DNA from: Antedon bifida
Lineage: Eukaryota; Echinodermata; Crinoidea; Comatulida; Antedonidae
Assembly: GCA_963402885.1 (NCBI GenBank)
Contig: OY727101.1
Span: 15,228,417 to 15,292,416 of the forward strand
Reading direction: 5' to 3'
Length of the DNA: 64,000 nt
Every line of letters begins with the position of its first letter. Position 1 is the first letter of the stretch. The notes beneath the pieces were generated by a model. It saw nothing but the letters and a program-made list of their open reading frames with translations. It did no database searches and was not told the DNA's origin. Below, one piece after another: positions 26,804-56,781 of the stretch. Both the position numbers and the translations under genes were made by a program.

Positions 26804-28727
26804 TCAATAAAAATTGGAGGAAATAAAAATGAATGTATTTCTAAATTCGGTTTGTGTATCAGAAGATGCGACACGACCACGTCTGCTTACCGTAAGAAAG
26901 CGCCCTCGTTTTGCTTGGTCGCTAGAGGGCTCATTTGCAGGTCGATCTCGAATACCAATTCTGAATTGTATTAATGATTGAAAAGAAACGAAACATGAGC
27001 GCCGACTGAAGCTTTCTCGCCACAAAATATCGAAGTTTTCTTCACACAGAATGTTTGACTCTGTATTCTGCGAAATAAAGAAATATATTTATTACACCGC
27101 TAATACATACCATGATTTGAATAAATCATAAAAAAATACATACAAAATGATAAAATAAATCACTGATATTACAAATATATACATTTATAAAAGATTTTCC
27201 AGGATAGCCCTAAACGCTTTTTAGCTTATTTTTTGGGATCCTTTAATATTCTAAATTAATCTAACAATTACAACGTATTGCATTAAACTAGTGAAAGTTA
27301 ATTAACTCTTCCCTGATTAAACAAAAATATAACCAAAATAGTAAATAAACGATGTCTCTATGCGCTCGATAATAAAGAGAAAGAGTGGAAAACAAAAGGA
27401 AGAGAACAAAAAGACAAAAACACCAAGCTAGCACTCAAACCGGAGTATGGGGATACACCATCACCGCTAACTTACACACTGTTCCCCAGTTAGCATCGGT
27501 TAAGTCTTTTCAGGGATCCGGTGCCTCCTAGCCTAGTCAGAAAACAACAACAAGCAAGAAAGCCACATGGATACTTACATTTCTAGCTGAAATCTTCCCA
27601 TGTTTGTCCATAGACAGATAAAGACCAGTATCAGCACCCCGGATAATAAACAAACTAGGCCCAACAGCGAATGTTGTCACAAGAACTGAAATCAAATTTG
27701 ATTTTTATTTTTTAAAATTGTATATTTAGGCAAGGATAACCATAAGCGAATTCATTCACTATCCTTCTTAAAGGTGGTTAAGACAAACATATACACAAGA
27801 TGCTCTACATAAACAAAGTCTTATTACAAGTCTTTGAGAGTGGAGTTGTAATTTGTCATTAGAAAAAAATCCTGACATAACCCAGGACCCTTGAATTGGT
27901 AACCAAGCATCATAACCACCAAGCCACAACTCCAATATTTAGATTGGCCAGTATTATTAAGGAATAGTAACTAGTAAACTAGTTGGTAGTCGTAATAGTA
28001 GAATGTTATAGTTGAACCATACAGATATTATCGTGAACTTAAAACTAGGACTAATTTGTAGTTATAGTAGATGTATACTAAAACTGGAGGAGTATACAGT
28101 AGGTCTAAATTAGAAGTGGTAATAGCGTAATAGTATACATTTAGTATGTATAAGATTAGGTCTAGGCCAGCTACTGTAAATGTAAATGGGGGAATAACCT
28201 GCGACTTGCAGCCGACTGGGCTGAATTGCAGAACTTCAGTAGTACTTCTGAAGGTGGATTACCAACAAAACAGAAAGTTACTTAAAATAGCACAACTAAG
28301 CCAGTCGAATAGCCAGTAGTGTGTAGCGCCTTATTTTCGTGACTAAAAAGCTTAACAACCGGAGAAAAGTGTTAGTATTATTATTTCCTGAACAAACCAC
28401 AGATAGTTCTAAGTAAATCAAATTCGTTTGTCACTCACCGTATTTATCTTTACAGTTGGTAGTTCCACTGACACGTCCTTCGGGATCAATACGAAGAAAG
28501 AAACCATTTCGTGATAAAATCTTTTTCACAAATTGGTGGTTTTCGTTCAAATTTGTAATATTGGAACCCATCTCTTTACTTTCTGAATTTAGTCCGTCGT
28601 TGAAGTAATCAACAATTGAGTCGTTCATTTCACTTTGGACAGTTGGCTCAACCAAGAAACTTACTGTTTCTTCCATTCCCCAGCTGATAAAAGCCCACAA
28701 CAAAACTATTTTTAGTACCGAATTCAT
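26804..28727 (-). CDS. Divergent secreted FGF-like ligand, gene A (three exons)
   Basis: Exons are 28727-28439, 27685-27579 and 27067-26804, giving 219 aa. Donors are GTGAGT and GTAAGT; acceptors are GATTTCAG and TTTCGCAG; phases are 1 and 0. An N-terminal hydrophobic stretch after Lys6 (IVLLWAFISW) suggests a signal peptide. Sequons lie at N35 and N56. The beta-trefoil core starts near residue 70: LSRNGFFLRIDPEGRVSG is the FGF first repeat, GADTGLYLSMDKHGKI (113-128) the G-x-YL-x-M-x-x-G repeat, WRESFSRRSCF (148-158) the FREQF-like strand, and FLTVSRRGRV...FIFIS the last repeat. A 107-nt middle exon between phase-1 and phase-0 introns is the FGF gene plan. Heparin-site differences and cysteines C92, C140 and C157 are unusual. 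By eye it is nearest FGF9/16/20, but orthology is unproven. Tandem paralogues are at 40983 and 53957. Confidence 0.85.
27715..27960 (-). mobile_element. tRNA-derived SINE in intron 1 of FGF-like gene A
   Basis: Read on the minus strand from about 27935: GGAGTTGTGGCTTGGTGGTT (A box) and GGGTCCTGGGTTATGTC (B box, worn). A body follows, then a tail 'ggatagtgaatgaattcgct...ggttatccttgcc'. That tail matches the SINE at 29720-30112 ('ggacagtgattaattcact...ggtaatccttggcc'). Confidence 0.65.
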
Positions 28728-29719
28728 CTTTCATACAGTGCAAAAGTTATCTGAAAAGAGAGGACAACTTACACACTAAGATAATATGTAATTTGTGTTT
28801 ATTTGGTATGCATAGATCATTAAACAACAAAAGATAAACGGGTATTGTAATTTTAAGTTATTGTGCTAATTAATTTGATTTAACTTTCCCGTGTAAATTA
28901 GTGGAAAAGAAATATAATTTTGATTGGGAAAAATCTGTGTCCACATAAGTACTAAAGGCCCTAAAGTCTTTACCACGCTAAACATACTGCAATGCAGATC
29001 TACAAAGCTACTAGTAAAATATTGATATCCATAGAACCCAGTCCAGTGGACACCTCGGACCATTCAGGGGACATTACTGTTAAGGGGACACTTTTCAACA
29101 TTATACTGACAACCACTAAACCTAAGATAGGGATGCCGAATACGCTTTGTGCGAGAGCAAAATAGACTCACCGTGCTCATGAGAGTTGTAGTTAATTCAC
29201 CAGCCTTTTGTACATATTATAAAATATAGAAAATAAAGCATCTGAATGATAGACTTAGTGTACAACAAAACCGGATACGTAACAGCAGGCGAAGACGAAT
29301 GTGGACAAAGCCTTGACCAATACAGACCGGTTGATGTGGAAGGTGCGCAAGGACATGCTCAGGAAATGTCAGTGTGGGAGGTTATTAATTGATACAGGGA
29401 ATAGATAAGTACTTATAGCTTCTTGCTCAATACACGGAAAACAATCAATGCTAAAACAAAGTCTACAGCTGCATATTTTTCAATCGAGTAATCTTTATTT
29501 CCACAATATTTTCATAGCAACTGAAATTCATTCGTTCATTGATTCCGTCATGACTGACGGTTCGTGACTGCAATGATGGATCGCCAATTAGATCGGTCTT
29601 CAGTTAGTTGATATATTATGTGTGTATAGGTTGTCCAATTAATTTACCTTTGTCGCAACTGATTTTACAAAATATGCATTTTCTTGTATTGTGTAGGACT
29701 ATGTAGAACAAGTTATTCC

Positions 29720-30112
29720 AAAATGTACGTTTTATTTATTTATTTTTTATTTATTTTATTTATTTTATGTCTTTAGGCAATGTGGCCAAGGATTACCAAT
29801 AGTGAATTAATCACTGTCCTATCAGATAGGTGGTAATCCCCCTGATACAGGGGCTATTGTGTGAACCAGTTCACCGGGGTAACCCCCTACTCTTCTTCGA
29901 ATAATGAACTGGGTTCTTTAAAGTACACACAGGTTATAACTGTGTACACTGGACCTACGGTTTATAGTCCTTATCCGAGAAGACTTGTTCCACCACCAGA
30001 ACTAGGAGCGAGTCGGCCTCGAACCCTTGCCGATGTTGTTGTTGGCTCTTTAGGTACGGTAAACGGCGCCCCTGCCTTAACCGCTCGGCCATATGACTCG
30101 CTAGTCATTTTT
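29720..30112 (-). mobile_element. tRNA-derived SINE, near full length
   Basis: On the minus strand the head GCGAGTCATATGGCCGAGCG...GGTTCGAGGCCGACTCGC has a perfect 7-bp acceptor-like stem, an A box (TGGCCGAGCGGTTAAGGC) and a B box (GGTTCGAGGCC). This looks like a tRNA-Ser/Leu type with a long insert. The middle carries 'ggactataaaccgtaggtcc...aagaagagtaggggg', a core shared with 55434-55640. The end is an ATAAAATAAATAA-type tail. Its length of about 390 bp fits a SINE. The head also explains the open frames seen here. Confidence 0.8.
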
Positions 30113-30218
30113 TTTGAAGTTAAAGTTTTAAAAAATGGAAAATATTGTTGCAGTATAAATTGTCTTCTCAAAATGAAGAATGATTTGAATTATTCTTAAC
30201 TTATGTGTCAGTGGCACT

Positions 30219-31085
30219 CTTCCGAATGGAAGGAGTAACAATCTGAACGGCACTCAACCAAACGATTAACTATCTGGTTGGAGTGAATCAATCTGAAGCG
30301 GCCCTCTGTAGAATGATGATTCACTCTGAAGGAGTAACAATCTGAACGGCACACTGCAAAACGATTAACTCTGGTTGGAGTGAATCAATCTAAAGCGACC
30401 CTCTGTAGAACGATTCACTCTGATGGAGTAACACTCTGAACGGCACTCAACCAAACGATTAACTCTGGTTAGAGTGAATCAATCTGAAGCCGCTCTCTGT
30501 AGACCGATTCACTCTGAAGGAGGAGTAACAATCTGAACGGCACTCTACCAAACGATTAACCCTGTTGGAGTGAATCAATCTGAAGCGGCCCTTTGTAGAA
30601 CGATTCACTCTAAAAGAGTAACAATCTGAACGGCATTCTACCAAACGATTAACTGGTTGGAGTGAATCAATCTGAAGCGGTCCTCTGTAGAACGATTCAC
30701 TCTGAAGGAGTAACAATCTGAACGCCATTCTACCAAACGATTAACTGGTTGGAGTGAATCAATCTGAAGCGGCCCTCTGTAGAACGATTCACTCTGAAGG
30801 AGTAACAATCTGAACGGCATTCTACCAAACGATTAACTGGTTGGAGTGAATCAATCAGAAGCGGCCCTCTGTAGAACGATTCACTCTGAAGGAGTAACAA
30901 TCTGAACGGCATTCTACCAAACGATTAACTGGTTGGAGTGAATCAATCTGAAGCGGCCCTCTGTAGAACGATTCACTCTGAAGGAGTAACAATCTGAACG
31001 GCATTCTACCAAACGGTTAACTCTGGTTGGAGTGAATCAATCTGAAGCGGCCCTTTGTAAAACGATTCACTCTGAAGGAGTGGAT
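30219..31085. repeat. ~92-bp minisatellite, about 9-10 units
   Basis: The unit order is GGAGTAACAATCTGAACGGC, 'attctaccaaacgattaact', GGTTGGAGTGAATCAATCTG, AAGCGGCCCTCTGTAGAACG, ATTCACTCTGAA. The middle units (about 30600-31000) are nearly identical at 92 bp. Outer units vary through small indels, as expected for an array homogenised from its centre. Each unit contains the inverted pair GAGTGAATC / GATTCACTC. Long minus-strand open frames here are translations of the repeat. Confidence 0.95.
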
Positions 31086-31782
31086 CAATCTAGATTAAAC
31101 TGATTTGATTTAATTCAGCATCATACAAAACAGTTACAGATAAAATTCAATGAATATATATAGGAAACAAAAGATTGAAACATCAACAATATACAAAAAG
31201 GTGATACCAAGGCAAAGCCATAAAAGTGAATTCAACCTAATTCCCACCCACTCCTAATACCAACTTAACCTTGTCATTGAAGTATATCTTTATCATATTT
31301 AATTGGCTAATCTTATCTTATATCGACTAATCTTTAACATTTGAAAGTCATGCAACTTACTTTCATTAGGAGGCCTACCGTAAGCTAGTCATATCTCTGT
31401 ATCTTGTTAGATTAGAAAATACAACTTTGTTATATTCCTCTCGTTGAACAACCAGGCTGCTACTGGTTATAACCATTCCTTACAGCATCAGATAAATTTT
31501 AATGATACATTAATTAGCATAAAAAATGTTTTTTCCATTGGATGTGTGGGTATTTTTTATTTAACGTTTATTTTACTACGAACAATGTTATAGGCCTGTG
31601 TCATACTTTTTAGCGTAATAAAAGAAATAGAAATTTATGAGGCAAATTAACTTGAAGTAACTCCAAAGTTAAATATCGTAACATAAATTATTCAGAAAGC
31701 TAATTTGCATATTGTGTTAACTTGAGTGATCTTTTTTCATAAAATCTATCGGATGTTTCTTTTATCTTTTAAGTTCTACATA

Positions 31783-31859
31783 AACAAGGCCATATACTTG
31801 GCTGCAGTCGCGTGCTCAAATTTGAGTCAGTGTTTACCGACCAACCAACCGACCGACTA
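31783..31859 (-). repeat. GGTCGGTC-family dispersed repeat, inverted
   Basis: AACAAGGCCATATACTTG, CTGCAGTCGCGTGCTC, GTGTTTACCGACCAACCAAC: the family blocks in reverse complement. The GCTCACTATG block is missing. Confidence 0.8.
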
Positions 31860-33374
31860 AAAAACACCGACCTTTTGTTTATATCAAGCAGTTGTATTTT
31901 CTTCAATACGCTACAGTGCACATTTCTACATCATTCTCAACTTTTATTTGTTTTTTCTGAAACTAACTTTACTACTACTTAATATGAGGTGTGGTACCCA
32001 AAATCCTTCAACATTCTGAACCAAAACCTTAAAAGTCATTTTCCACAATCAACTATATAGAACTTACTGTGTTGTAAGCTTACTGGCAATGACGCATGCG
32101 CAGTTTGATTTCTAGAATATAAATTATGGTAGGTCTATTGTATCGGATATTACCGATTGATTGTTGGTGTGCAATTAGTGCCATCATTGTTCAAGGTTGT
32201 CAATCAATCAATAACATATTTCATGATATGATATTTAAATTTTAAGAAAGAAGCGGGCGAATCCAACCGACAAAAACAAAAATAAAACGCCTTACGCGTT
32301 GTAGTTATCAGTAAAACGGTCCTTTAAATATCTTAGGTGTTACTTCGATAATGTAAAATAAACATTTATAGCTCATCTTCGTTGCTGTAATCATTGGGTT
32401 GACATGCTTAGCCATATGGTAAAATAACTATATCTTCATTTTACTGTCTTATAAATATTTATTTACACAATACTCAAAGAAATTTACCGCACATAAACAC
32501 ATTGGTAATCAGGAGTAGATAACATACACAGCTACCTATTATAAAACCGAAACAACACTTCAGGATTATATAAGGTGATTTACTATATACATAATATTAA
32601 TAAATATTTATTTCCCTTTACACAAAGACATTTTTCTGAACATAAAATGTTAATCTGCGTGCTATATAATCAGTACAGCCACCGTTCCGTAACAAAATCA
32701 TTGGTCTAACTGTATACAAAATGAGAATTGAATGAGTATAGGCCTACTGTAGTCAACACACATACATTGAGCACTTTTACAAAATAACGAATGGAGTTTA
32801 GTTTGCTTCAGTTTACTTTAGTTTAAGGTAAGTGTGATATTCATTAATAAAACAAAATTTAATTTTCTTAAATTTTCAGCAAGAAAATACATTTCTGGAT
32901 CCATTTTTTCTTTTCTGTACTATTTGGGACATTTTCTGTGGTTTTTCAGGCCTAAACTTAGGCCTAATATAATTAATTCAGTTTTAAATAATAGTCCCCG
33001 AAACCTTGAAATACCGTGATGGGGTGTCTCCAAAGAAAGGGGTTATATACTGTCCGTAAAACGCAATTTCTAGGCTATATTGTTTTGATATTTTGTTTCA
33101 TAGACAATGATAATTATGTACGACATTATAAATAACCTTTTGACATTTTGACCGTTTTGTGGCAGAAACATCATAATCGTTATAATTCTGACGTACTGGT
33201 AACTGACTGGTAACCGCTGTATGAACTTACAAATGGAGTAAACTTACGTACTTAAACAAGAATTCTGTAATACTGCAGACAGTCACACTAATTTCTATTT
33301 GATCTTTTATAGAAATCCATTCATCGTCCGTACACCAGAAGTAAGATACATTTTGTACATTAATGGATGAATTA

Positions 33375-33791
33375 AAGGACAATTTGACCGAGGACCATAT
33401 TTTAACAACGTATTAGGGACGTACATGTTATTTCAGAACGCGAGATTAAAGATATCGCCGCACGCGCTCGCCGTACAGCCGTCGCCCGTAATTTGCTGTG
33501 ACGTCACAGGTGCATCGTTATGAATTTTCTGGCAAAGTCTGTCAAACCGCGAAAATTTCTAGTAAACACACTTTAAATCGTAAAAAATAAAAATGTTGAT
33601 TTTGTTTTTGTTTCTTTCGCTTATCTGGACTCATTAGGTAGATTTTGCGATGCACCTGTGACGTCACAACAATTTACGGCGACGGCTGTACGGCGAACGT
33701 GTGCGGCGATATCCTTAATCTCGCGATTGTTCTGAAATTATGTACATTCTAAATACGTTGTAAAAATATGGTCCTCGGTCAAATTGTCCTT
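33375..33791. mobile_element. Fold-back element with ~143-bp inverted arms
   Basis: 33375-33517 and 33648-33791 are inverted copies at roughly 85-90% identity (AAGGACAATTTGACCGAGGA... against ...TCCTCGGTCAAATTGTCCTT) around a 130-bp loop. Each arm contains TGACGTCA, the CREB/ATF palindrome, and a CpG-rich 'gccgtacagccgtcgcc' block. No frame. Confidence 0.9.
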
Positions 33792-34199
33792 ATGTCGCCT
33801 TCCATTTACTGGTACGTTCACACGTACGGCTCAAATAGTAAGGTAATTCACGGATAAATGTCAAGGTGTTCACATGTACGGTGTTCGTTATATTAATGAA
33901 TTGCGTTAAACACACGAGTCCAAGTCTGAGCCCTTACTATTTGGTGTGAACAGCTTGTGCATACTATAACTTCAATTATGGCGGCGATTTCACTCCATAG
34001 CTAAGTGAGGAGGACACGAATACAAATTGATGTTCGGATTAAAGTATAATGTGTAAAACTGTGGCATGACGGCGACAAAATTATTGTTCTTCTCTTCTCA
34101 TATATGCTTTTAATCTCTTTTATGATTTACAGTACTAATTTCTTTTTACTCTCTTCACAATGTCATACTAAATGCTGAAAGCGACAAAGGGCGCGCTAC

Positions 34200-34719
34200 T
34201 TAAAGATGTATTGTCCCTTTGACTAATTCTACAAAAATTCATGTAAAAAAATATTTAGAAAAAAAGTGGGTCATTTTGAAGTATCATAATAGTTATTAAC
34301 TTTCACCAAAAATTAGTCAAAAAAAAAATCATTTAACTGAAATACAGACGTTTTTTTGTTCAAAAAGTTTTCGACCAAAACATATCTCATAATGCAACGC
34401 GCTTGTTTGGCTACTCTGTATGCATAATCATAAAACTAACTCGCGATCTGTGTGAAAACACATTCACCTGATGATCCTAATTAGCATCATGCATAATGCA
34501 TACTCGTGGTTTGAAATCTTTGTTTACTTTCGCTCGCGACGATTTTCCAGACGAAATTTAATTCAATTAATTTACCTGTTAATTACGTAAACTTGTTGTT
34601 TTTGGCTCGAATTTTCGACTTAAAGTAAATAACTTTATTATTACTTTGATATAGCCAATTTAAATTTAGAATATTTCTTTTTTCATTTTTTTGTGTTTCA
34701 AGGGACAATACATCTTTAA
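34200..34719 (+). mobile_element. MITE family M4, young copy
   Basis: Starts TTAAAGATGTATTGTCCC and ends GGGACAATACATCTTTAA, with TTAA at both borders. The 520-bp interior includes 'aagtgggtcattttgaag', 'catatctcataatgcaacgc' and 'ctcgcgacgattttccagacg'. It is near-identical to 39676-40213 and to the inverted 61445-61998. It lacks a ~25-bp stretch, 'ataactttgaattcc...', present in the others. Confidence 0.92.
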
Positions 34720-35330
34720 TATTTCGGTTCATATTTTATAAGGTACTGATAATTTGAGGCTTTTGTGACGTCACAAACATATATTTCCTGTATATATTTT
34801 CCTGTTTTTATCGTGCAAACAAAATGATATTTAAAATATTGTAATGTTTTATCACGGATCTTTGCACCCGCCCTATTTTTAATATTCTACAAGATGATGT
34901 TATTTATGATATTATAACATTATTTCCCAACCAGCAGACGACAGGTTAATTTAATTTTATGTTGATAAATTTAATATTTTATCCTAGTGTTTATCGAGGT
35001 CAACCCATTAGCCTAAATTTCAGTTTGTTGCTTACAAACTGAATCTTATTTGAATGAAAGAGTTGTAAGTTTAAACTTAAAAAAGGGCTCACTATGTGAT
35101 AATGTTTACCAGGCAAGCGAAGTCGGTTTGTATTGAATACGGTCTTTATTACTTAGTTTTGTTATTGTAGCCAGACAACAATTAACAACTGTTCTTTATT
35201 TTAATTGTACATTTTATATATACACAATTGGATGTGGTCTTAGACACATTACATTATGGAGGAATTAGTAACTAGTTTATCTATGTAAGTATACATATAT
35301 TATTATTATTATGTCTGTCTAATGACACGT

Positions 35331-35351
35331 GATATATATATATATATATAT
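35331..35351. repeat. TA microsatellite
   Basis: About ten TA dinucleotides between GTGATA and TTATCTCG. Confidence 0.9.
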
Positions 35352-37017
35352 TATCTCGTGACCGTTTTCTATGGCCACCACCAGGTAGGCTTACTTCATT
35401 AAGGCTTCTATGAATGGATGACTGGTTGGGATCAGGAACGCTAGTAGACCAAACCCAGTACCGTTTTGATTACGATCAATCGGGAAATTACCTCACGACG
35501 TTTATATATATGGCTCTGGCGAGAAGTAGGCCTAATTGGAAAACTTAAGTTTTAAAATTATTTTTTACAATTTGAAATAAATCATAGTATATACTTCTCT
35601 TTCAAATTCAATCGATCTAAAACGTAAGTAGGCCTACTATTTTGTTACAATAGTCAGATTTTCATTAATGCTGTAATTAAATTAAAACTTATTTCTTATT
35701 ATCTTTATTGCACCAATTCTAAGAATAAGCAAGAGCGCATCCGTATCTTATCAAAGTTTCTGTTGCGATAGGCTACGAAATTAAAATTGCACATATTTCG
35801 TCACCTCTCTGTTAATTCAGGTGTTTTATATAGGCCTATACTAACTAACTATACTTAGTTTGTGATAACCTACACGTGTCCTAATATTTTCAAAACTTAA
35901 ATGAATTATTATTTCATCTCTATACTTACTATATATAATTATTTGTTTTGTACACTTTAAAAAGTTTTAAAAAACCTTTTGTTGTGTTTCTCTAAATATC
36001 ATACCACTTTCTAACAATAATATTATGCTTTCGACTTAAATTCAACTTATGAATGAATGTACTTACCCTTATTTTTAAAACAGTAAGAGTTTTGAGAGGA
36101 AAACTTTTTCAGAAATGGCGAAAACAGATTTAGTTATTACAGTTGTTAACCATAACGGTTACTGTTTTGAACGTTTACATAAAATGTATTATATAAAAAT
36201 AAATTCTGCAGCTTTCTGCCTAAATATGGAAATGGGCGTTACTACAAAAAGAGATCAAAGTTTACGTCTATTTATCACTGTAGTTAAATGTTATTTGATG
36301 TAAAACAAACATTTTGACATGAATAACTTGCATAACTTTTGACTTAGACCTACATTACTCAAATTTATAACTTTTCAGGTCATACCAACTTGACAATAGA
36401 GAAACTTACTTTAAGGTCTTGCGCAATCCAAAATATCTGGCGACATTCAATTTTTTAAAGATATTTTGTAATTTTTATAAAGTTATTCACTTTCGCCGCA
36501 AAAAAATAACAAACACATAAACAATTTTTTCACAAAACTAACATTATTTCCCCACCGATTTATTTTGTATTTACGACAGGATCACCGGATTGTGTAATCC
36601 TGGAAAAAGATGTTAAATAAGCAAAGATAATGATTTTGCTTATATAAAAAAAGGGAAAACAAAAAGTTAAATTTAACAAAAAAAACTTATTTACTTCCAT
36701 GACATTAGGATTTCTTGACTATTTTATTACTTAATTAAAACTACGTGTTTCCAAGTAAATATTTATTGAAAATAAAGCTAAGCAGACCAAACAAGTTTTT
36801 AACGAATATACAAATCGAATTTGCCTTTTTAAAAGATTAAAAACTCTTAAAATGTGTAGACCGACTCAATAATGAACGTCAAGTTTCTTATGCTGTTTAT
36901 TTGTTTAAAGATTTTCTTTTCACTTAAATTATAAGTGTATTAGTGTTCATATACTAGATTCGCTAGACATCCAGCTAGACAATTTATTGTTTTGCAGAGA
37001 TAAGGCTGGCCCCGTAG

Positions 37018-37081
37018 CCTAATATATATATGTATCTGCATATCAAGCAGGCGGTCCGAGTTCGAGTCTCGGTTGGGGCGA
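37018..37081 (+). pseudogene. tRNA-like sequence, probably a tRNA pseudogene
   Basis: GCCCCGT and TTGGGGC form an acceptor stem with a wobble and a mismatch. TCTGC-ATATCAA-GCAGG forms a 5-bp anticodon stem with a 7-nt loop having T at position 33. CCGAG-TTCGAGT-CTCGG is a perfect T arm, and CTTTTT follows. The D arm is replaced by TAATATATATATG, so it is probably not functional. The nominal anticodon ATC (Asp) is atypical for a eukaryote. Confidence 0.5.
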
Positions 37082-37458
37082 CTTTTTCTCATTCTCACAG
37101 ATTTCCTCATCTTTATCGTTTCAAATTAATTAATTAAATTTCAGTATATCACCGGGCGGTTTCGAATTAATGTTCATCGCCTAAACGGGCGAAATAAATG
37201 TTTATAGGCCTACAGATAGTCTTTAACGAACTATTGTCTATAGGCTATGTACATTATTACGGCAGTAGGCCTATTTGTTTCTAACCTCACTGTATATTCA
37301 GTAGGTGTATGTACATGGTTGGCACGTTATGATGTTTAGATTGGGAAGATAACCTGAACCATAAAATGAATATTTATGTCCCTCCCAGCTGATCTTTGGT
37401 GTGTGATTTCAGTTCATTGCCCGTACGGTTTAAAATATTTGAGCATTTCAGTTTTTAC

Positions 37459-40982: not shown

Positions 40983-43900
40983 TTATGAAATTAAGATGAA
41001 ATTGCTTTTAAACTCAATGTTATTTGCCGATGATGTAGCTCTTCCTCCCTTATCGATCGAAAGGTAGCGGCCGCGTCGTTTTCCATTAGAAGATGCTGTC
41101 TGTGAGCGTACTTGCTTACCGACTCTGAATTGGGCTAACGACTGGAACGTCACAAAGCACGAACGACGGTTGAACTTTTCGCGCCACAAAATATCCGAAT
41201 TTTCTTTAGAAAGAATGCTTTCAGCTGTGTCCTGTAATGTAAATAAAAATACAAAGATTTTAAGATTTGTTTTATGGTTATTACCGGTCTCAACATTTGA
41301 CTCATTGATTTTGTTTGTCTTTCGTGGGAACAACCAACCTTATTAGTCGCGTTGACGCGACTCTATAGTTCACTATGTCGGTCTGTCGGTCTGTCGGTCC
41401 GGTATCACTATGCGTTTTATCGCTTTTCTGTACTTTTTGAACTGTTTGATGTACAGAAGAGTTTTAAAGTACATCACTTTTTGAAAGTTCATTTTTTTCT
41501 GAGAGCCCGCGACTTATGGCTGTTGGCCTTGTTATTTCTACTCTTTTTCTTTTTTTTTCATTACTTCTTACAAATAAGTTGACACCATTAATAAGAATGT
41601 GTTAAAATGGTAAAAGCTCTAAATACTTAATTATAGAAGGTGTGTTCTAAGTATTGCAATTATAGTAGCACACAAAAATACATATATACCCATGATTTTA
41701 AACAGTGCATTAAAGTAATGTTTTATACATAAAAAATTCGACTCATTTTATATTACTTAACCCTTGACACCAAACTAGTATCATTTTTTCTTTAAAATAA
41801 TGTATCTTATACTAAAAAGATGAAATCGACTTTGAATAAGTCATGTTTGTAATAAAGATTTCACTTATTTATGAAATAAAAATTACTGATATTGATATAA
41901 TAAAAACAACTATTTCCATACACACAATGCCTATCGGTTATTTTTTTTTAGATTACAATTTTATCAGGTAAATATTATATTTTCGATTTACATTTTTATA
42001 TTTAAACATGGCCTATTGAACAAATAAAGTTTATTTAATTTTTCATGGGAACAATTGTATCTTTAAACAATGAAGACACTGAGAACTATTTGGCCATGAT
42101 AATAATAATTTATTAGAAGCTTCACTTTTACAACAATTTTCAGCACTATAACTCCAAACTTCAAACAATAAATAGATAAATAACATAATATAAAAACAAT
42201 GAAATCTTGTCATACTTACATTTCTAGCCGACACTTTTCCAGCTTTGGTCATTGATAAATAAAGACCGGACTCACTTCCACGAATGATAATTAAACTAGG
42301 ACTAACAGCAAATGTCGTTACACGTACTATAAAGTAAGAATAATACCTGTAGTATATAAGATGGTTAATGTTTTCATACAGGTAATCAGTACTACAGTAA
42401 TGCTTTTTAGTCATGGTCTATAGTTTTGTTTAAAAACATATATTTTTAGTTAATTATCATGATAATAATTATTATAATGACAATTATGTTCACGGGTTAA
42501 AAGGAGTTAAATAAATGTACGACATAATATGACAAACTGGCACAATGAATTCCAACATTATTATATAAAAAAAGAGAGAAAGGTAACAATAAATAATAGG
42601 TACAGTATAGGTTAAGCGGAAGTCAAATAACTATTGAGGGAGGTAACATTCTTTATTGGAACCGCCGCCGTTTATTCGTTAACCTTGACATCATGTGACC
42701 TAAGAGATGCTTGTGAAGTACAGGGTAGGCGTAGCTATTTATTATGTGTAAACCATGTACCTGTAGGGCTAAATCAGTCTGTAGTCCTATAGTATACTGT
42801 ACGTGTCAAAACATGTTCTGAATTTTTACATCGCACATAAGACTAAGAATAATAAACTAAGAATGCGGCCTTTTTTAAACTGATGTTTTATTACAATAAA
42901 AATGAGATAGATTGTGAAAACAATATTATAAGATAGAGTCTATACTGACGTGGTTATCATTTTTAAATTCGTTTATTTGAGTTTGACTGCTTTTTTAGTG
43001 TTAGGTTTCTTCAAGAAGTTCAAAGTTCAATTTAATTCACCTTCATCAAAATTTACCAAATTTATGATCATTTAATATTTTTTAATGAAATATTTTCAAG
43101 AGAAAAGAACATGGACAGCATTCTTATTACTCTTGATATGAAAGAAACTCTGTGATGAGTTTGTTTTAATGTGTAATTTCTTCCTGTACATTATTGATAG
43201 CAGTCTTAACTCACAAATTGACAGGTTCCGGCAGTAATTATACTCTATTACGAATCATGGAAAATACGAACGTAAATTGAGGAGATTAATTTGTATATTA
43301 ACCTATCTATAAAATATAGAATTTAACCAAAAGGAACGTGTGTTTACGTAATTTAATACTGTATTAAAGTGAAAAAAAACTTTATTAAGTCAAAATAACA
43401 TATAAATCTAAAAGCAAATGAAAATACTGTGGATTCCAATGACTGCATCAATAGAAATTAGCAAAAAGCTAAATCAAAACGATAAAGTAAAATATTCAGG
43501 AATAAATTGCAAATCTTTCTGATAACACTAATCCTTCTTATCATGTTTTGGGGGGGATTTTTGTGAGATTAATTCGATTTTTCATAATATTCGATTCGTT
43601 ATACTAATAATCTTCGTTATTATTATAAAACCAATGTAGATGTTAGTAGCGGTTTCATCGCTGTTAATTGTGAACTGAATAAAATAAAATAAAATAAATA
43701 AAAAATAAAATAAAATGAATAAAAAATAAAATAATCAACATCTTTCTTTGAAACAGAAATTATTGTACTCTTTTTTTTGTTGTTTCTTTCCTCATCATTT
43801 TACATTTGAATAAGAGGACATTGATACATAATAATGAAAGTAAATTTTATAACACAATAGTTTACTTACCATATCTATTGTTACAATCGTCTGTTCCACG

Positions 43901-44107
43901 GACACGTCCATCTGGTCCAATCCATAGAAAGAAGCCATTTCTTGATACTATTTTATTTACGTTTTCTGTAGAAGCATGAAAGCGTTTTCCATTGTATTCC
44001 GTTATCTTCGTGTAAACAGTTGGAATAACTTGCAAACTCACAGATAGGTGTAGAAAGGACAACAGCAAAACACAAGTAAAATATATTTTCCTTGTCTTGA
44101 ACAACAT
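40983..44107 (-). CDS. Divergent secreted FGF-like ligand, gene B (three exons)
   Basis: Exons are 44107-43870, 42326-42220 and 41231-40983, giving 197 aa. Donors are GTAAGT (both); acceptors are CTTTATAG and CATTACAG; phases are 1 and 0. The ATG at 44107 is chosen because it opens a textbook signal peptide (MLFKTRKIYFTCVLLLSFLH). The frame extends upstream only from a GTG. The N-terminal spacer is about 20 residues shorter than in genes A and C and has no sequon. FGF-core landmarks are VSRNGFFLWIGPDGRVRG (54-71), GSESGLYLSMTKAGKV (96-111), WREKFNRRSCF (131-141), a basic KRRGRYLSIDKGGR segment, and a FILIS end. C75 and C140 are the only cysteines after the signal peptide. It sits in the same orientation as its paralogues on either side. 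Confidence 0.85.
41345..41545 (+). repeat. GGTCGGTC-family repeat just upstream of exon 3 of FGF-like gene B
   Basis: TCGCGTTGACGCGA palindrome, AGTTCACTATGTCGGTCTGT core, then a diverged body ending 'gcgacttatggctgttggcc' and TTGTTA. It lies in intron 2, about 115 bp before the exon-3 acceptor in transcript terms. Confidence 0.75.
43676..43733. repeat. AAAAT-type microsatellite in intron 1 of FGF-like gene B
   Basis: Runs of AATAAAATAAAATAAAATAA with one interruption (AATGAATAAAA). Confidence 0.85.
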
Positions 44108-47149: not shown

Positions 47150-47300
47150 TAGGCTTACTGTACCCTTTACGATTAACTTCAGGGTTAGGCCTACTAACAC
47201 CATTTACGAATTGTAATTTAGGCCTACTGACACCCTTTGCGAATAGTATGTTAGGCCTACTGATACCCATTACGATTTCAATGTTAGGCCTACGGTTTTT
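47150..47300. repeat. ~45-50-bp tandem repeat built on TAGGCCTAC
   Basis: Four imperfect units, each 'ttaggc(c/t)tactgacacc-tttacgaatt'-like. A minus-strand open frame repeating 'GVSRP' is a by-product. Confidence 0.8.
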
Positions 47301-47849
47301 AGCTTTCGTTCACGCTAAATATGTTGGTTTATCGATATATATTTTAAGGTTTTTCGTAGGTGACAAGGAATCAGAACGAGGAACAACAATTTAGAAAACT
47401 GTAGAAGGTGAGTTTTTGTTCGCTATTGTTATTTGTAATCGTACATCTAAACACACTTTTTAACATTTTCGGATTCTGTCTAAATATTTTTTTTATAAAC
47501 AAGTTTTCGTTGATCGATAAGATAGCATTTAGTGTGACATAATTCATTTTTTTTATAAATAAACCAAATAAAAGAAGAATATATTGATATATCAATCTAT
47601 TTGATCATCAATATGTGATCTGTTCCTTTATTTAGAATTCCCTAGTTTTATTTATCTGAATTTAATCCGTGGATCTTTTAGATTATTTTCGTAAGTTAAA
47701 ATTAACAATTCGTTCAGTTCATTCATTCAGTTTTATCATTTCGTTCAGAGAGATTTAAAAATCGTTGAAACTTATAAAAAATGAATACTAAAATGCAAAG
47801 TAAAGGCCTATTTTTCTTTAAAATTAAAAGCAAATTTAACATATAGGTT

Positions 47850-49350
47850 GTTCAATTTTAAAATATGTAATATCTTTTTTTTTCAATGTTTGCAATAAAT
47901 TTTTGTAACGAAATTTGTTGAAATGCTCAGGAGATTTTTTTTTTTCGTTTGCCTAGTTTAAATTTGCATTAAAAACACAGAAAAACATTAATATTGGTTA
48001 TAAAACATCGCCTTGTTGTTCCGTTTGAAGAAAATTTAATATTCTCCAACTTTTATTTGGTCCTTTTTAATTGTACTTCTTATTTTCATTTAGTTTAAAT
48101 TAATATCGAAATGCTTAGAAGAAGCTTAGAATTTAAATTCAGAAAAAAAAATTGGTTAAAATTAATCTCCTTAATGTTCGGTTTAAAGAATATTACATAT
48201 TCTCTAACATTTATTTTGCTCCTTTTGTATTTTACATATTTAAAATAAATTTTGCTTGATACGATAATATCGAAATTGTTTAAAGACCTCCGCCTTGTTC
48301 TATTTGAAGAAAATGATTTAATCTATGCTTATCTGTTGCTTATTTTTTTACAACATAATCAATTTTGCTCAAGAAATTACTATCGAATTTCGATGAAATG
48401 TTTTGCTTCGAAATCTAATTTAGAATATTGTGTCTAAAACATCGCTTTGTTGATTTGAAAACAAAATATTCTATATATTCTTATTGTTATGTACACATAA
48501 TGTTTGAACTTTGCTTTAAAAAAATGATTTAAAGATTCCCATTAAATTATATTCACTTGAATTTTAATTTTAAAACAAATTACTATGGGCTAAAGAACGT
48601 ATTTTTGTGAGGTTTGAAGAAAATTAACTTTGGTTTTGGTCTTTTTGTAATACAGCAAAACATAATATTGAACTGTTGAGGGGATTTTAAATCGTTAAAT
48701 CATTTTCCTTTGCATTAGAATTTTAAAAAAAAACATTTTTTGATTGTTTCTAACGGGTTATAGAACATCGCCTTGTTGTGAGTGTTTTCTTTTGCTCAAT
48801 TTTGTTAAGAATAATAATATATATAATATATATAATAATATCGAATTCGTTTTTCAATTGAATTTGAATTCTTGAAGAAAATGTAGTATTGCTCTTTGTT
48901 GTTTTCGTTTGGTCCTTTCGTTTGGTCCTTTTATTATTACATACAAGAAATTGATTTCGGAAAGTTTAGATTTTGATTTGTTTTAAATAGTTCTCCAATT
49001 GACTATTGGTTAAAGAACATCGAGAGATTTGAAGTTGATATTGTTTTAGCCAATTTTTTTCATCGCAAAAAATGTATATAATTAATAATTAATAATAATC
49101 TGTTTACGAAATTAATATTTTTAGATTAAAAATTCGTTAAAAACTTTTGAAATATTGGAAATAAAATTGAATATAATTTGTTGCGATTGTGTTTGAAGAA
49201 TCATTTAAAATTTTCAATTTGTTCTTTTATATACTTCAATTTACAACTTATATTTAAATTAAATTTTAAGAAAAAAACGCACTAACCATTTAATAAGATT
49301 TTAAATTCACTTGTTTTCTTATCGCGATTTTTCGTTAGAAGTATTTCATA
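47850..49350. repeat. Eroded tandem array
   Basis: The phrases 'aaacatcgccttgttgt', 'gtttgaagaaaat', 'tattctc' and 'atttggtccttt' recur in order near 47998, 48170, 48284, 48435, 48590, 48765, 49008 and 49180. Spacing is irregular at roughly 110-240 bp. The units are heavily diverged. Confidence 0.5.
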
Positions 49351-49809
49351 TCTTTCTTAAAATTCATAGTTAAATGAACAAAAAACAATGATATTGTCTA
49401 CATCCAGTTCATGATAATTAAGTTTTGTTTTTTTTTTTTTTATGGCCGACGTCAATTAGTTTAAATTAATCTGAATAATCTAATCTAATAACTAGTAGTA
49501 TTATAATAATTAATTTGCTTCTTAAGTTCAACTTATTATAGGCCGAAATCGAGATATGTGTTTACCGTATTATTGCTTTTACCACAATTGTATGTACTCC
49601 AGTTTGAAAAAAATGTGTGTACATGTTAAGTATATTCATATTGTACTGTGATGTATAAATATGTATATAATGATGCTACGTACTTGATAAAATTATAAAA
49701 TATGGCCTCGTACGTCTTATGTACGAAATAATCATCAATAGTTTATTTCGGTTTAAGTGTATTAGTTACACAGCAATTAATTGTTTTGTTTCCTTTTTTG
49801 TTTTTATAC

Positions 49810-50130
49810 TTAACGCGTCTTTGGGGAGCGCCCTATTATGTCGCCGTCTCTGCTGAGTACCCATTCGTCTACATGAGCTTGTGATCGGTGCCCCTTATCC
49901 TTTGCTTGAGTCGGTAGGATCTCAGCAACGGAGACCAAACATATGTTTTACCGTCCCACATATTACATTACCTTATTAGGGATCTTTTCGACGACCTACT
50001 GTAAGTTCGGTCGTCGCCTGGACTTAAAATATGTCGAGGTATCAAGCACACGTCCCAATGTCCCCGCATGCGCACAATGTAGTAACTAGTCCTCGGTTCT
50101 TGATCGTCGCAAATCGCCCAACTCCCCCTA
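49810..50130. other. GC-richer block with a hairpin, unidentified
   Basis: A 300-bp island of near-balanced base composition inside AT-rich DNA. It contains CGACGACC-11 nt-GGTCGTCG (about 49989-50016), an 8-bp perfect stem. It is not 5S rRNA, tRNA or an open frame that I can recognise. It may be a small-RNA gene or a fragment of a repeat. Confidence 0.35.
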
Positions 50131-50556
50131 TTATTATGTACATAATTCTACAAAAATAGTTATAGGCTAATACTCTTGATTAGCAATATTTGTTTGGAAA
50201 TCACAAATCTTGGAATTATGAAGTAAATTATTCAAATGACTTATTCTCTCGCGTGGCACGTCACTAACATTATCCAGATTGTTATATTGTTTATTTATTA
50301 TATCGGCCTACTTTTGAATAAATAAAACATAGACTGCCCTCTATTTAGTCTATTATTGTGGTCGAGAAAACAACATACACTGTTTGAGTTGAGCTGGAAA
50401 AAAATGAAATTGAAAATCTTTTTATACAACAACAAATTTAATGAAAATGCAAATACAAATAAAAAATGACAAACTTTTAACTTAAAGTTGATAATGTAGG
50501 CCTTTTGTACTTTGGAAAGGAAAGAGAATCTACTGTACGCGAGTGAAAATACTCCA

Positions 50557-50640
50557 TCCGAGATTCGAACTCGGAACCGTTTGATTTGATATACAAACGA
50601 ACTGGTATTAGTCATGAAGTCTGTATGTATTTCATGGTAG
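50557..50640 (-). pseudogene. tRNA-like sequence
   Basis: The minus strand shows a perfect T arm, CCGAG-TTCGAAT-CTCGG, and before it a CGTTTG...CAAACG stem whose loop contains ATATCAA, as in the sequence at 37018. The acceptor arms pair only partly. Either a tRNA pseudogene or a SINE head. Confidence 0.4.
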
Positions 50641-52694
50641 GGCAATTATTTTAAATTTCCGTGTGGTGTTCAGCGACCTCAGTTCTCGATTGCGCACGCG
50701 CAACAGAAATCTATATCTAAGGTAATTTCGCATTTATTGAAATGAGAGCTTGCGGAATAAATACGGAAACAGAACACAAACCATTGTTTATTTACTATGT
50801 TTAGGTATCTATTAGGAGCCCATATATTTAGTAGGATATTTTATGTTTAGATCTTGGTATTTGTAGGCCTATATTGAAAGTTACACAAAACTTATCTAAA
50901 TTTAGGCCTATAAAGGCCTACCATACATTGCTATTCCCGTCTTTGACCATGTTTCTTTAGTCCCGTAAAACGTTTATGCCTGTTATACTGTAGGCCTATT
51001 TAACTATATATATATATTTTTTTTAACTCAGAGGTTGAAATGCATCTAAAATAGTATTAATAACATCGTTAAACAATACAGACAAAACTGTTAAGTTGAG
51101 CACTTCAGGCCCAAGCCATTCGCACCCCTTAACTCTAGTTCAGCATTCTAGATGCCACCTGAGAAGCGATCGGCAGGCGTGAGGAAATAATGTATACTGT
51201 TTCATGTGTATAATATGTAATTTTGTCCACATAATCATCCATGACGTTTTGTCGCTTGATTATGGGCTTCCGATTATCAAATCAGATTCCTTAGATTATT
51301 CTTAATTTCAAACAGGGAAAGTGAGATACCCACTCTTACATGATTTTAACATCCTTCATTTAAAAAGGTAAATCTTAATTTGGAGAACTTAAAAATGGGC
51401 TAGCTTTTATATTGCCGTCCTTCTGCTTTCGTAATTATGCCATAAATATTATAATATGACCGTGAGTGAAAAAATGTCCCACCTGACTTTTATGGGTAGG
51501 TAACATTGAATGTTAATGTCCTTTTCTAATTTTATGATAGTGTAATAACACTGACAGACTAGAATACACTTAACACTTATTAACCCCAGTCCCCATTGAT
51601 TATGAAGCAGTGCTTTAGAAGGTTAAAGTTCAAAATACTTATGGGTAAAACGAAAAATATAGAAATAAGAACAAATTAAAGGCTGTTGTCTGCTATGTTA
51701 ATGTATTCGCACGAATTGTGTTTCCGAGTTGTTATCGGTGTATAGCGTAGTTTCAGCATCGCAAGTAAATGTCATTTATATGCATACGCTTGCGTAGGCC
51801 TATAACTAGACACTTTCGACTCGTTTTCGACTTATGGAAAAAAGGCTTATTATACATTTTATACTGTAAAGATTTAGTATTTTTAAAATGGCTAAAACAA
51901 AGGTGTAAAGTTTCTAAAACTACACTCATATAAGTGTAAAATTAATTATTGGTTGGTTATCTTATTTTTATTTTTATATTTATTTCTATTATTTATTTAA
52001 TTGATTGTTAAAACTATGATTGAACATAAATGGTAATTAATAGGCTTCAGTTTGTCATTCCCAACATTACGGATAAACTAATAGATTTTAAGCCTACGTA
52101 TTTTTTGATGTCATCATTGCATCAAAAAAAGACAGGACCACAATGTAAAACAGATACACTGTTATCTGATTGTTTTATCCTGTATAAATATATTATTTAT
52201 TATTATTATTATTATTATTCGGAAATTGAAAACTCGGAGTTGAGCTTAAAAATTGTTTTAAATATGTCCTACTGAGGGTTCCGTAGGTATATTTTGATTG
52301 GTTGACTTGTTTTGTTGGTTCGATGGTTTATTATTGTTGTCAAGTTTATATTGTCGATTGGTAACGGAGTTGTAAAAGTACAACAGAAACAACTGTAACC
52401 AACAACATAATTTTCGCGTGCCCTTAATTTTCGCGATCGTTGCGAAAATAAAGGGTCCGTGAAAAATGTTGAATGAATTTGTACTGATTACAATATTTCA
52501 CACATGAAATTAAACTTATTATTAAAATCAATACATATTGTCTTTTTATTTTAAAAATAAGCATATTTGTACATTCTTATTCTAAGTTTCTTTACATATA
52601 CGGTACCATTATTGTTTTTTGTTTATGCATTCATAATAATTTAATCAGAGCCGAAAAAATGCATCCACTAACCATCTCTACAGTAGTTACTTTG

Positions 52695-52955
52695 ACCCTC
52701 TTGTTATATTGACCCTCTAGTTATATTGACCCTCTAGTTATATTGACCCTCTAGTTATATTGATCCTCTAGTTATATTGACCCTCTAGTTATATTGACCC
52801 TCTAGTTATATTGATCTTCTAGTTATATTGACCTTCTAGTTATATTGATCCTCCAGTTATATTGACCCTCTAGTTATATTGACCCTCTATTTATATTGAT
52901 CCTCCAGTTATATTGACCCTCTAGTTACATTGACCCTCTAGTAATACTGACCATC
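52695..52955. repeat. 17-bp minisatellite
   Basis: About 15 units of TTATATTGACCCTCTAG, with variants GATCCTC, GACCTTC and CTCCAG, trailing into diverged units to about 52995. Confidence 0.93.
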
Positions 52956-53552
52956 ATTTTAAATCTCCAGTTATACTGACCTTCTTCTACTGACCTTCTT
53001 AACGCAATTATTATATGATTATAGCTTAGCAAAGATGGAATAATTATATATATATATTTTATATATTAGGCCTATCTCTAGGCCTATATTAAAAAACGTA
53101 TTACAATTAAATTTTAATATTTAATATTGCATGAAAAAAACTATAGTTCACCCTCGCAAGGTTTAGTTGTGAGTGGCGAAAAAAAATAGTAGTAATTTAA
53201 GAAAAGCGACCGGTGTCGTATAACTTCCATTACTATTAAAATCAATAAGCAATATTCAAAAGCATTTAAATCTATTATTAAAGATAAACTATTTGAAAAT
53301 ATATGTAAAGCTGCTTTAACTTTGGAAGTCACGTTTACAGAATTATCCAATTAAAAAGCCCGGATCCGACCCCATGTGCATAATAATTTACGTACGTAAT
53401 CGATGCAGAAATATGAATTATTCATTATTCATACTCCGCTACCTTATTGAATATTCATTAGGTGTGACGTAGGAATTGACTTGACTACAATTCGCTTTTA
53501 CAAACGCTTTCCACCGAGCACCGAGCCGTCCACCACGTGTGTGTTGTCAAAT

Positions 53553-53615
53553 GGTTTAAAATATGGGCCTGTCGATGTATGGGGTTCGAATCCCATGCGC
53601 AACATCTTTTTACGA
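53553..53615 (+). pseudogene. Weak tRNA-like fragment
   Basis: GTTG...CAAC ends, ATGGGGTTCGAATCCCAT as a T-arm-like hairpin (an 8-nt loop instead of 7) and CTTTTT after it. The D and anticodon arms do not fold convincingly. Confidence 0.25.
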
Positions 53616-53956
53616 AGAGATATTATTTAGAGGGTTAGGTTGCGTTATAGATAGGAAATAAGTCGACTATCTTGTAATTCTTTCACATTGGAAATAATGA
53701 ATAATTCATGATTTCTGAACCGCTTACTTTGAGAGAACAAAAATTCGCTGGCCGGAGAAAACTTTGGGCTACGTTTTTAGACCACATATGTTTTGTACGT
53801 AGCCTTATTGGCGGAAGGCAAACAAACCTATTCTAGAACGTTTTCTATAAAATACAAAAAATAATACGATCTAGCACAAACTACCGTAAGCATTGGATAA
53901 TAGACGAACTAGAAACTACCCGTTCCACTTTTGATCGTTAATAATTCAAATTTTTT

Positions 53957-56781
53957 TTACGATATTAGGATAAAATTAGATTTAAACTCCGTATTAGTTT
54001 CGGATGAAACTACCCGGCCGTTTCTGTTAATTGTGAGAAAACGCGTCGTAGTCCTACTCGGAAACGCTGTATCGATATTGCGTTTACCTACTTTAACGTG
54101 TACTAACGACTGAAAGGATATAAAGCAGGATCGTCTGGATTTTTCCCGCCATAAGATATCAATATTTAGTTCAGACAGGATTTCGTCCTCTGTGTTCTGA
54201 AGGAAAAATAAATTTGACTTAAATAACTGTACTATTTTCTTCTCTATTATCATCTTCACCATACTTATTATCATCTTCTAATACACAATCATCATTATCA
54301 TCACCATCTATAATCACATATCTCATTTTATCACCACCACCATCATCGTCATCATCAATATCATCATCATAATCATCATCATCATCATAATCATCATCAT
54401 CAAGAACAACAACAACAACATTATCATCATCATAATCATCATCATCATCATAATCATTGTCACCAAGAACAACAACAACAACATTATCATCATCATAATC
54501 ATCATCATCATAATCATCATCATCATCAAGAACAACAAAAACAACATTATCCTCATAATCATCAAGAACAACATTATCATCATCATCATCATCATTAATA
54601 ACAACATTATCATCATCAAGAACAACATCAACATTATCATCATAATCATCATCATCATCAATAACAACATTATCATCATCATCAAGAACAACATCAACAG
54701 TATTATCATAATCATCATCAACAAAAACAACAACAACAGTATCATCATCATCATCATCAAGAACAACTTCAACATTACCATCATCATCTATAATCACATA
54801 TCTCATTTTATCACCACCACTATCATCGTCATCATCATCATAATCATCATCATCAAGAACAACAACAAACATTATCATCATATTAAATCATCAAGAACAA
54901 CATCATCATCATCAATAACAACATTCTCATCATCAAGAACAATATCAACATTATCATCATCAAAAACAACATCAACATTATCATCATCAAGAACAACTTC
55001 AACATTATCATCATCATCATCATCATCAAGAACAACTTCAACATTATCATCATCATCAAAAACAACTTCAACCTTATCATCATCATCAAGACCAACATCA
55101 GCATTATATCATCACCATCATCCTCATTGCATTAACATTATCGTCAGCCATCATCCACTTCTTAAAGACAGTTTCTAAGCCAACATACATTTCTTGCAGA
55201 TATTTTCCCAAGCTTGTCCATTGATAAGTAAAGTCCTGATTCAGTGCCTCGAATGATGACCAAATTAGGTCCGACAGCAAAAATGGTTAATTCAACTATA
55301 ATGTAAAACAAAACAAATATTTATTTTATTCATTTTTTATAGTATTATGCAAAACATGCAATGTTTACCAGCATCATATTACATTAATTCGTGAACAATT
55401 ATATCATCAGAGGGACATAATAATGATAATATCAGGCTGTGATGGGCATGGGTCCGAGCCTATCTGTACTATACTGATTACATCCTTAGGCCAGATGCTT
55501 TACTCTCATTGCCTCGTCCTTCAGATGGGATGTAAAGCAGTTGGTACCGAGTGCACGCTAAAGCACTTGGTACTGTTTGAAAAAGAGTAGGGGATCCTCT
55601 ACCGGTGTGCTGACTTGGTATGCGCTGCACTGCTGACTGCCGTGGGTCCGTGGAGGGCCTTATCCGAATTTCCTCAGTTTCCAGTTAAGCTTGTGAACCA
55701 GAATAAAATGCTTTACCTTTTAACTTTTGATTCATATAGAGGAGACTTTGAGGTGACTATGTCCGAAATAGTATTATGTGATATGGGTATAGTATTTACT
55801 CCTCGGACGGTGCCTTTCCGCCCAAATCGTAATATCTAATTTAGTAATATTGGCAGACAAAGAAACAACTATAAGAAATATAAAGACTATAATTGCGAAT
55901 TTTTTTCTTCGTAGTTCAATTTTTCATAAAAAGAACATAAAAGCAATGTTATCTATTTAGTTTTCTGTTTTGTGAGAATCTCTCACTTATATTTCCATTC
56001 TTTATTACAATAGCTCTTCATAATGACAATCACATTTTACCAGGTCGAAAATACAGTCTCGCCTAATCCAAGTATTGTTACTGTACTCTATATAGACCTA
56101 CAATAGACAATGTTATTCATTGTATTATTTATTTAATTTATTATTATTTTTTATTTAGTTTTTAAATAGTATTCCTATACAAAATTATTATTAAATAAGT
56201 ATTGTCAAACAATGAAATTGCTAAACATGAAATAACATAAAAGCGAACTTTGAATAGGCCATTTTGTAGTTTGAATAAACTTTCTCGGAAAAAACTCAAC
56301 AAACATGATTTCGCTTCAATCATTGTCTTTCGGTTTACTTTTTAAATAATTAATCAGGTTTATTTGGTTTGTTTTTTCAAAGTAAATAACTATTAGTATA
56401 CATTAAAATAGCATATTCATCAAAATTCATAAAAAAAAATTATTTTTCAGAGGGAAATTAATATATCTTTAATAATGAATTTGTTTACGAACCGTATTTG
56501 TTTTTACAGTTACTTGTGCCACGGACATGTCCATCTGGTCCGATCATCAGAAATAAACCAGTTCTTGACACAACTCGTGTTACAACTTCATGATGGTCCA
56601 ACATGGCTTCTTCGGTATCTGAGGTCGTCGTCTCCCTGTTTTTTAATTTGTCGTTAAAATAAGCCAATGTGGATTGGTTTGTCTCTATCTCCACCGTTGA
56701 TTCAATCAGCGAACCCAAGGATAACGATAACATAAATGGCATATAAAGCACACACAGTGACATTTTTCCTACTGGAGTCAT
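53957..56781 (-). CDS. Divergent secreted FGF-like ligand, gene C (three exons)
   Basis: Exons are 56781-56493, 55295-55189 and 54196-53957, giving 211 aa. The donors are GTTCGT (weak) and GTATGT; acceptors are CATTATAG and CCTTCAG; phases are 1 and 0. Exon 1 is 289 nt, as in gene A, and exon 2 is 107 nt, as in A and B. ATG at 56781 or Met7 could start a signal peptide (MSLCVLYMPFMLSLSLGSLI). It shares with gene A the sequon at N35 and the motif AYFNDKL/DYFNDGL. Core landmarks are VSRTGLFLMIGPDGHVRG (71-88), GTESGLYLSMDKLGKI (113-128), WREKSRRSCF (148-157), FLTINRNGRV and an FILIS end. C92 and C156 match the conserved pair. Exon 3 lacks one residue next to RRSCF relative to A and B. Intron 2 is mostly trinucleotide repeat. 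Confidence 0.85.
54240..55140. repeat. ATC/AAC trinucleotide satellite filling intron 2 of FGF-like gene C
   Basis: About 900 bp of (ATC)n interrupted by AAGAACAAC(AAC)n and ATT, giving blocks of irregular length. A longer non-repeat phrase, 'tctataatcacatatctcat', occurs at about 54307 and 54787, so a ~480-bp block has itself been duplicated. Minus-strand frames rich in Asp/Val or Met/Leu are artefacts of this array. Confidence 0.95.
55434..55700 (+). mobile_element. SINE-like element in intron 1 of FGF-like gene C
   Basis: 'cttcagatgggatgtaaagc...ggtaccgagtgcac' followed by 'aaagcacttggtactg' and 'gaaaaagagtaggggat'. The same order of blocks (GGACTATAAACCGTAGGTCC, TTTAAAGAACCC, GAAGAAGAGTAGGGGG) is in the minus-strand SINE at 29720-30112. 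This supports a shared SINE core. A B-box-like GGGTCCGAGCC lies at about 55451. Confidence 0.6.
56265..56473. mobile_element. Old copy of MITE family M4 at the exon-1 border of FGF-like gene C
   Basis: The phrases 'aaagtaaataactattag', 'acattaaaatagcatatt' and the end 'gggaaattaatatatcttt' plus 'aa' correspond to the M4 terminus GGGACAATACATCTTTAA. The terminus stops about 19 bp from the exon-1 splice donor. Confidence 0.5.

Follow-up and report, generated by a model that had tools for sequence, protein, structure and literature searches.

A tandem array of six divergent FGF-like genes and its nine-member subfamily

FGF complements and tandem pairs in other animals

FGFs are central signals in development. 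The family's gene plan is one of three exons, with introns in phases 1 and 0 and a middle exon of ~104 nt. FGF8, FGF10, and others have signal peptides; the intracellular FGF11-14 have no secretion signal. Paracrine FGFs carry the conserved NYNTY receptor motif, whose Asn contacts the receptor linker in FGF2. Drosophila pyramus and thisbe are an FGF gene pair. In the excerpts of the papers cited here, the FGF numbers published for deuterostome invertebrates are small, ranging from one to eight: a single gene is given for each of A. japonicus, S. purpuratus, and A. planci (PMC5638244), Amphiura has two and hemichordates have five (PMC8180256), and S. kowalevskii has six (PMC3420111). These excerpts also describe tandem FGF pairs, namely, amphioxus FGFB/FGFE and a proposed ancestral FGF3 and FGF4/5/6 pair (PMC3420111), and give the glycine box as a feature of every paracrine subfamily that endocrine FGFs lack (PMC8465397).

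Should the host be an invertebrate deuterostome, the obvious animals to compare are sea urchin, starfish, brittle star, sea cucumber, and hemichordates. By published counts, these have 1 to 6 FGFs, whereas we observe nine genes of one subfamily and three other FGF-type loci in a single genome. That most invertebrates have few FGFs, as assumed in the first-pass annotation of this DNA, is fair background on the excerpts used (PMC8180256, PMC5638244). The local expansion of diverging copies described there is indeed tandem and diverging, yet it was undercounted, with six genes in the array and nine exon 2 copies genome-wide. The FGF expansion is thus real, larger than first noted, and formed by a divergent subfamily. 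The amphioxus FGFB/FGFE and the FGF3-FGF4/5/6 arrangements are tandem like genes A to F described below, but they are pairs, compared with six genes of one subfamily. Among the literature matches listed, none describes a comparably large FGF array in an invertebrate, which leaves its absence unproven. If the host is an echinoderm, our observation would contradict the contraction of echinoderm FGFs to one gene, as published in the excerpted PMC5638244. Our preferred explanation, which we consider probable, is an old and divergent FGF ligand subfamily that was expanded in tandem and encodes secreted products that bind heparan sulfate weakly and contact receptors differently.

Gene structure and FGF family membership

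The window, meaning the whole 64,000-nucleotide stretch of DNA analyzed, corresponds to C14:15228417-15292416 in a genome of 315.6 Mb and 27 contigs. It contains genes A (28727-26804), B (44107-40983), and C (56781-53957), all on the minus strand with three coding exons each and encoding proteins of 219, 197, and 211 residues, respectively. The interval first proposed for three same-strand FGF-like genes fits exactly, running from the ATG of gene C at 56781 to the final base of the gene A stop codon at 26804. The intergenic gaps are 12.3 kb between A and B and 9.8 kb between B and C (proposed spacing, 10 to 12 kb). The number of three genes does not hold, as the array comprises six.

28439..28727, minus strand: gene A exon 1, 289 nt; ATG, donor GTGAGT; signal-like N terminus and first trefoil repeat
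27579..27685, minus strand: gene A exon 2, 107 nt; acceptor TTTCAG, donor GTAAGT; second repeat
26804..27067, minus strand: gene A exon 3, 264 nt with stop; acceptor TCGCAG; end of second repeat and putative third repeat
43870..44107, minus strand: gene B exon 1, 238 nt; donor GTAAGT
42220..42326, minus strand: gene B exon 2, 107 nt; acceptor TTATAG, donor GTAAGT
40983..41231, minus strand: gene B exon 3, 249 nt with stop; acceptor TTACAG
56493..56781, minus strand: gene C exon 1, 289 nt; donor GTTCGT
55189..55295, minus strand: gene C exon 2, 107 nt; acceptor TTATAG, donor GTATGT
53957..54196, minus strand: gene C exon 3, 240 nt with stop; acceptor CTTCAG

The six introns of A, B, and C all have GT-AG borders and lie in phases 1 and then 0 around the 107-nt exon 2, in agreement with the FGF exon plan first suggested. 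At the amino acid level, exon 2 of gene A is 75% identical to exon 2 of B and C. Also as first noted, exon 1 has 289 nt in A and C, and a sequon is found at N35 in both (NDS in A, NQS in C).

The assignment to the FGF family, for which a search against the Pfam FGF domain (PF00167) had been suggested as a check, is upheld by that search, with E values of 1.8e-15 for A, 1.4e-15 for B, and 4.6e-16 for C, well outside the range of chance. All six array genes searched (G, H, and I, described below, were left out) exceed the cut-off of 24 bits, scoring 57.5 (A), 57.8 (B), 59.4 (C), 54.5 (D), 50.8 (E), and 62.7 (F). The same proteins show some resemblance to other beta-trefoil families (fascin-like, FRG1-like, or IL-1-like), to which they might belong instead: Fascin lies above its Pfam cut-off of 23.1 bits in A (24.6 bits) and F (31.0 bits), B, D, and E have subthreshold Fascin matches, and weak FRG1 matches are found below the cut-off in A and B. 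However, FGF exceeds Fascin by 31.7 to 39.5 bits in the five of six proteins listing both, and C lists no Fascin match. Matching an A-B-C profile to the PDB yielded 128 distinct sequences at E values up to 0.01, and the best 60 of these 128 are topped by FGFs and designed trefoils (best, 7.7e-14), the latter derived from FGF1; they include FGF7 (1.6e-12), FGF20 (5.4e-11), and FGF9 (2.3e-10). With FGF Pfam scores this much higher, we rejected the other trefoil families, whose chance of being the correct assignment we judge very small.

Alignment to human FGFs with hhalign reached 98% probability over 73 columns covering exons 1 and 2 only, with exon 3 unaligned, and a gap-free alignment with human FGF9 spans a 64-residue block over repeats 1 and 2. 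By sequence, three repeat motifs are visible, while profile-profile alignment reaches only two repeats. Exon 3 is weakly similar to exons 1 and 2 (GRYLSIDKGGRA / GLYLSMDKHGKI / GFFLRIDPEGRV; E values of 0.015 to 1.1), and both the alignment and the fold of this last third of the protein are to be read as predictions. All nine copies display a hydrophobic stretch of 11 residues near the N terminus, with a mean hydropathy of 1.87 to 2.71; this sets them apart from the intracellular FGF11-14 and resembles the signal-like N terminus of paracrine FGFs, which suggests that the products may be secreted.

The array beyond the window, its relatives, and selection

A fourth exon 3 appears already within 10 kb to the right of the window. 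Searching 274 kb of fetched sequence, window included, with tblastn at E values up to 1 revealed three further complete genes (D, E, and F) to the right of the window on the same strand. Together, the six genes form a head-to-tail array of ~79 kb at C14:15255220-15334218. In the 127 kb to the left and 68 kb to the right, the same search gave no convincing additional copies, the leftover weak rows being chance-like. For the genome-wide count, we combined an exon 2 search with a PF00167 search. Using exon 2 of G as the query, nine places were found, corresponding to A to I, and all nine candidates were scored. The PF00167 search, at E values up to 10, gave 17 matches and led, with reading of the sequence, to genes G, H, and I; one match (L038) looks like a fascin by eye.

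C14:15304084-15301650, same strand as A to C: gene D, 229 aa
C14:15328274-15326827, same strand as A to C: gene E, 215 aa
C14:15334218-15332467, same strand as A to C: gene F, 225 aa
C14:11.957 Mb: gene G, complete, 218 aa
C14:20.923 Mb: gene H, complete, 215 aa
C10:30.935 Mb: gene I, exons 1 and 2 read

Across the complete copies A to H, 16 of 16 introns are GT-AG, in phases 1 and 0, and exon 2 has 107 nt in 8/8, where for G and H the acceptor tried was the one yielding 107 nt, with an AG at that position. This agrees with the plan of the FGF family, and the two exons read in gene I fit it as well; a third exon of I was not found within the 1.5 kb read. Three other FGF-type loci with more ordinary motifs are present as incomplete models, two on C10 (E values of 7.2e-6 and 1.5e-5) and one on C8, the last being a weak match (E value of 0.058) supplemented by reading by eye.

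Core identity among A to F is 49 to 59% in a MAFFT alignment, and 17 to 27% to five human FGFs, FGF19 included. The closer relationship of A and C to each other than to B, as first claimed, is not recovered: A-B, A-C, and B-C identities are each 59%, and no A+C grouping appears in the tree. The YFND-type motif on which that claim drew probably dates back to the common ancestor, B having lost it, since altered forms occur in D (YIND), E (MND), and F (YND). In the tree of 14 rows (the nine copies and five human FGFs), the nine copies separate from the human FGFs with support of 100/99 over a stem of 1.9 changes per column, D groups with G (96/95), and E groups more weakly with F (86/86). No vertebrate FGF subfamily can be assigned to the nine on this tree of five human FGFs. 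Forcing A to F into one clade is mildly rejected (p-AU of 0.03), consistent with common descent of D and G followed by a move of one of the two.

Recent duplication was rejected given the 49 to 59% core identity of A to F and dS near saturation. Core dN/dS is 0.13 to 0.27 in the 9 of 15 A-F pairs with finite dS, and the N-terminal part evolves much faster in A to F (pN of 0.49 to 0.62, versus 0.24 to 0.32 in the core). Genes A to F look constrained and kept by purifying selection. These data also bear on whether the array could be an assembly artefact or a row of pseudogenes, a reading that would suit the repeats and inverted copies in the flanks, the missing third exon of I in the sequence read, and two exon-1-like fragments on C16. 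Against it, core identity within the array is only 49 to 59%, frames are open with GT-AG sites in all eight complete copies, and dN/dS is low in A to F, leaving this reading scarcely credible.

The preferred explanation is that A, B, and C would belong to a single old FGF ligand subfamily of nine members, that tandem duplication would have given rise to the array A to F, and that at least one copy (G, sister to D) would now lie away from it. The array flanks contain repeats and inverted copies. The two C16 fragments are nearly identical to each other (97.8% over 3.1 kb). Noncoding similarity among gene neighborhoods looks like dispersed repeats, and an 808-base E-F identity proved to be merely the same DNA counted in both flanks.

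Heparan-sulfate loop, putative third repeat, and predicted receptor contacts

The glycine box of the heparin loop, GXXXXGXX(T/S) in the excerpted definition (PMC8465397), was found by pattern testing in human FGF2, FGF8, FGF9, and FGF10, i.e., in all four paracrine FGFs tested, and is missing in FGF19. None of the eight complete copies contains it. The net charge of the heparan-sulfate loop is 0 to +3 in A to F, compared with +4 to +7 in human paracrine FGFs. In the third repeat, a 27-residue segment of A to F aligns gap-free with FGF2, FGF8, FGF9, and FGF10, with a shuffle p of at most 0.0172 in 24/24 comparisons, unadjusted for the anchor having been picked by its motif.

With exon 3 anchored on this motif, the position of NYNTY reads CFVSF, CFVTF, CFISF, CFVSL, or CFESL in 8/8 complete copies, such that its Asn would be replaced by V, I, or E. 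This reading depends on the anchored alignment, which other programs do not reproduce: MAFFT places exon 3 differently, and the Pfam match in B, judged by its coordinates, probably does so too. Together with the missing glycine box, the putative change at NYNTY is newly noted here.

A to F resemble the paracrine FGF2/8/9/10 in their FGF domain, the gap-free block shared with FGF9, and the length of the third-repeat segment, and differ from them in glycine box, NYNTY (on the anchored alignment), and loop charge. Like the endocrine FGF19/21/23, of which FGF19 was the one compared, the complete copies have no glycine box, and the heparan-sulfate segment is less rich in basic residues; in endocrine FGFs the loop is shortened, whereas the 27-residue segment of A to F is not. 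We found no evidence of common descent with FGF19/21/23.

As a rival reading, the copies could be proteins derived from FGFs that no longer activate FGF receptors and act instead as decoys or antagonists or through another receptor (e.g., as immune or barrier factors), which would suit the fast N termini and the growth in copy number. The same holds for the apparent replacement of the NYNTY Asn and absence of the glycine box in 8/8, the long stem to the human FGFs, and an N-[ND]-T sequon kept at the exon 2/3 junction in all eight complete copies. On the other hand, the Glu of the WRE motif is retained in six of these eight, at the position of FGF2 Glu96, and human FGF8, which also departs from NYNTY (NNYTAL) and lacks the Asn, is nonetheless a ligand. 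We regard a loss of FGF receptor activation as unlikely.

Under the preferred explanation of a divergent ligand subfamily, each gene most likely would encode a secreted beta-trefoil ligand that signals via the animal's FGF receptors and is kept by purifying selection. Weaker heparan-sulfate capture and an altered receptor choice would be expected because the glycine box and, on the anchored alignment, the receptor-linker Asn are gone; the former could allow wider diffusion of the products. More tentatively, and with considerable doubt on our side, the nine could be diffusible FGF-fold signals that lack both the glycine box and the linker contact and employ a receptor mode unseen in vertebrate FGFs, or another receptor. 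The array and its nine-gene subfamily would offer a natural experiment in FGFs that selection keeps even though they can no longer rely on heparan-sulfate capture or the standard contacts with receptors. By eye, an intact glycine box seems to be missing from this genome's three other FGF-type loci as well, and the loss may thus extend to FGFs of this animal more widely instead of being special to the nine.

FGF-type loci outside the nine-gene family

Beyond the nine-gene family, which comprises the six-gene array and three members elsewhere in the genome, we observe three other FGF-type loci, two on contig C10 (L005 and L006) and one on C8 (L029). In the third-repeat segments read by eye for these three loci, an intact glycine box, GXXXXGXX(T/S) of the paracrine FGF heparan-sulfate loop, likewise appears to be absent. 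In addition, two FGF exon-1-like fragments were recovered from C16, a contig without any match in the whole-genome search with exon 2 of gene G:

C16:8553850, fragment L039
C16:9267540, fragment L040

Both fragments lie within duplicated DNA (97.8% identity over at least 3.1 kb), with the copies 0.7 Mb apart.

Genes surrounding the array

Two further gene types were identified within the window by Pfam profiles:

117-686, 3266-3529, 5254-5685 and 6499-6730, plus strand, Spec3-like exon frames (PF15795)
14184-14861 and 15302-15649, minus strand, TMEM26 gene (PF09772)

The four Spec3-like frames look like two genes in tandem with at least two exons each; three reach the Pfam cut-off for PF15795 (ectodermal ciliogenesis protein), the first falling below it. 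The TMEM26 exon frames score 210.9 and 32.4 bits. Open frames, read by eye, look like EML and hydroxyacid-oxidase-like genes to the left of the array (C14:15163000-15216000) and HECTD1, ENOPH1 and an RRBP1-like gene to its right (C14:15350000-15386000).

Tandem repeats in the window

Three tandem arrays were found:

6773-7597, 22-nt unit
30229-31081, 92-nt unit
52684-52952, 17-nt unit

A long, imperfect ATC microsatellite (54288-55127), with a higher-order unit of 63 nt, lies in intron 2 of gene C, flanked by exons 2 and 3.
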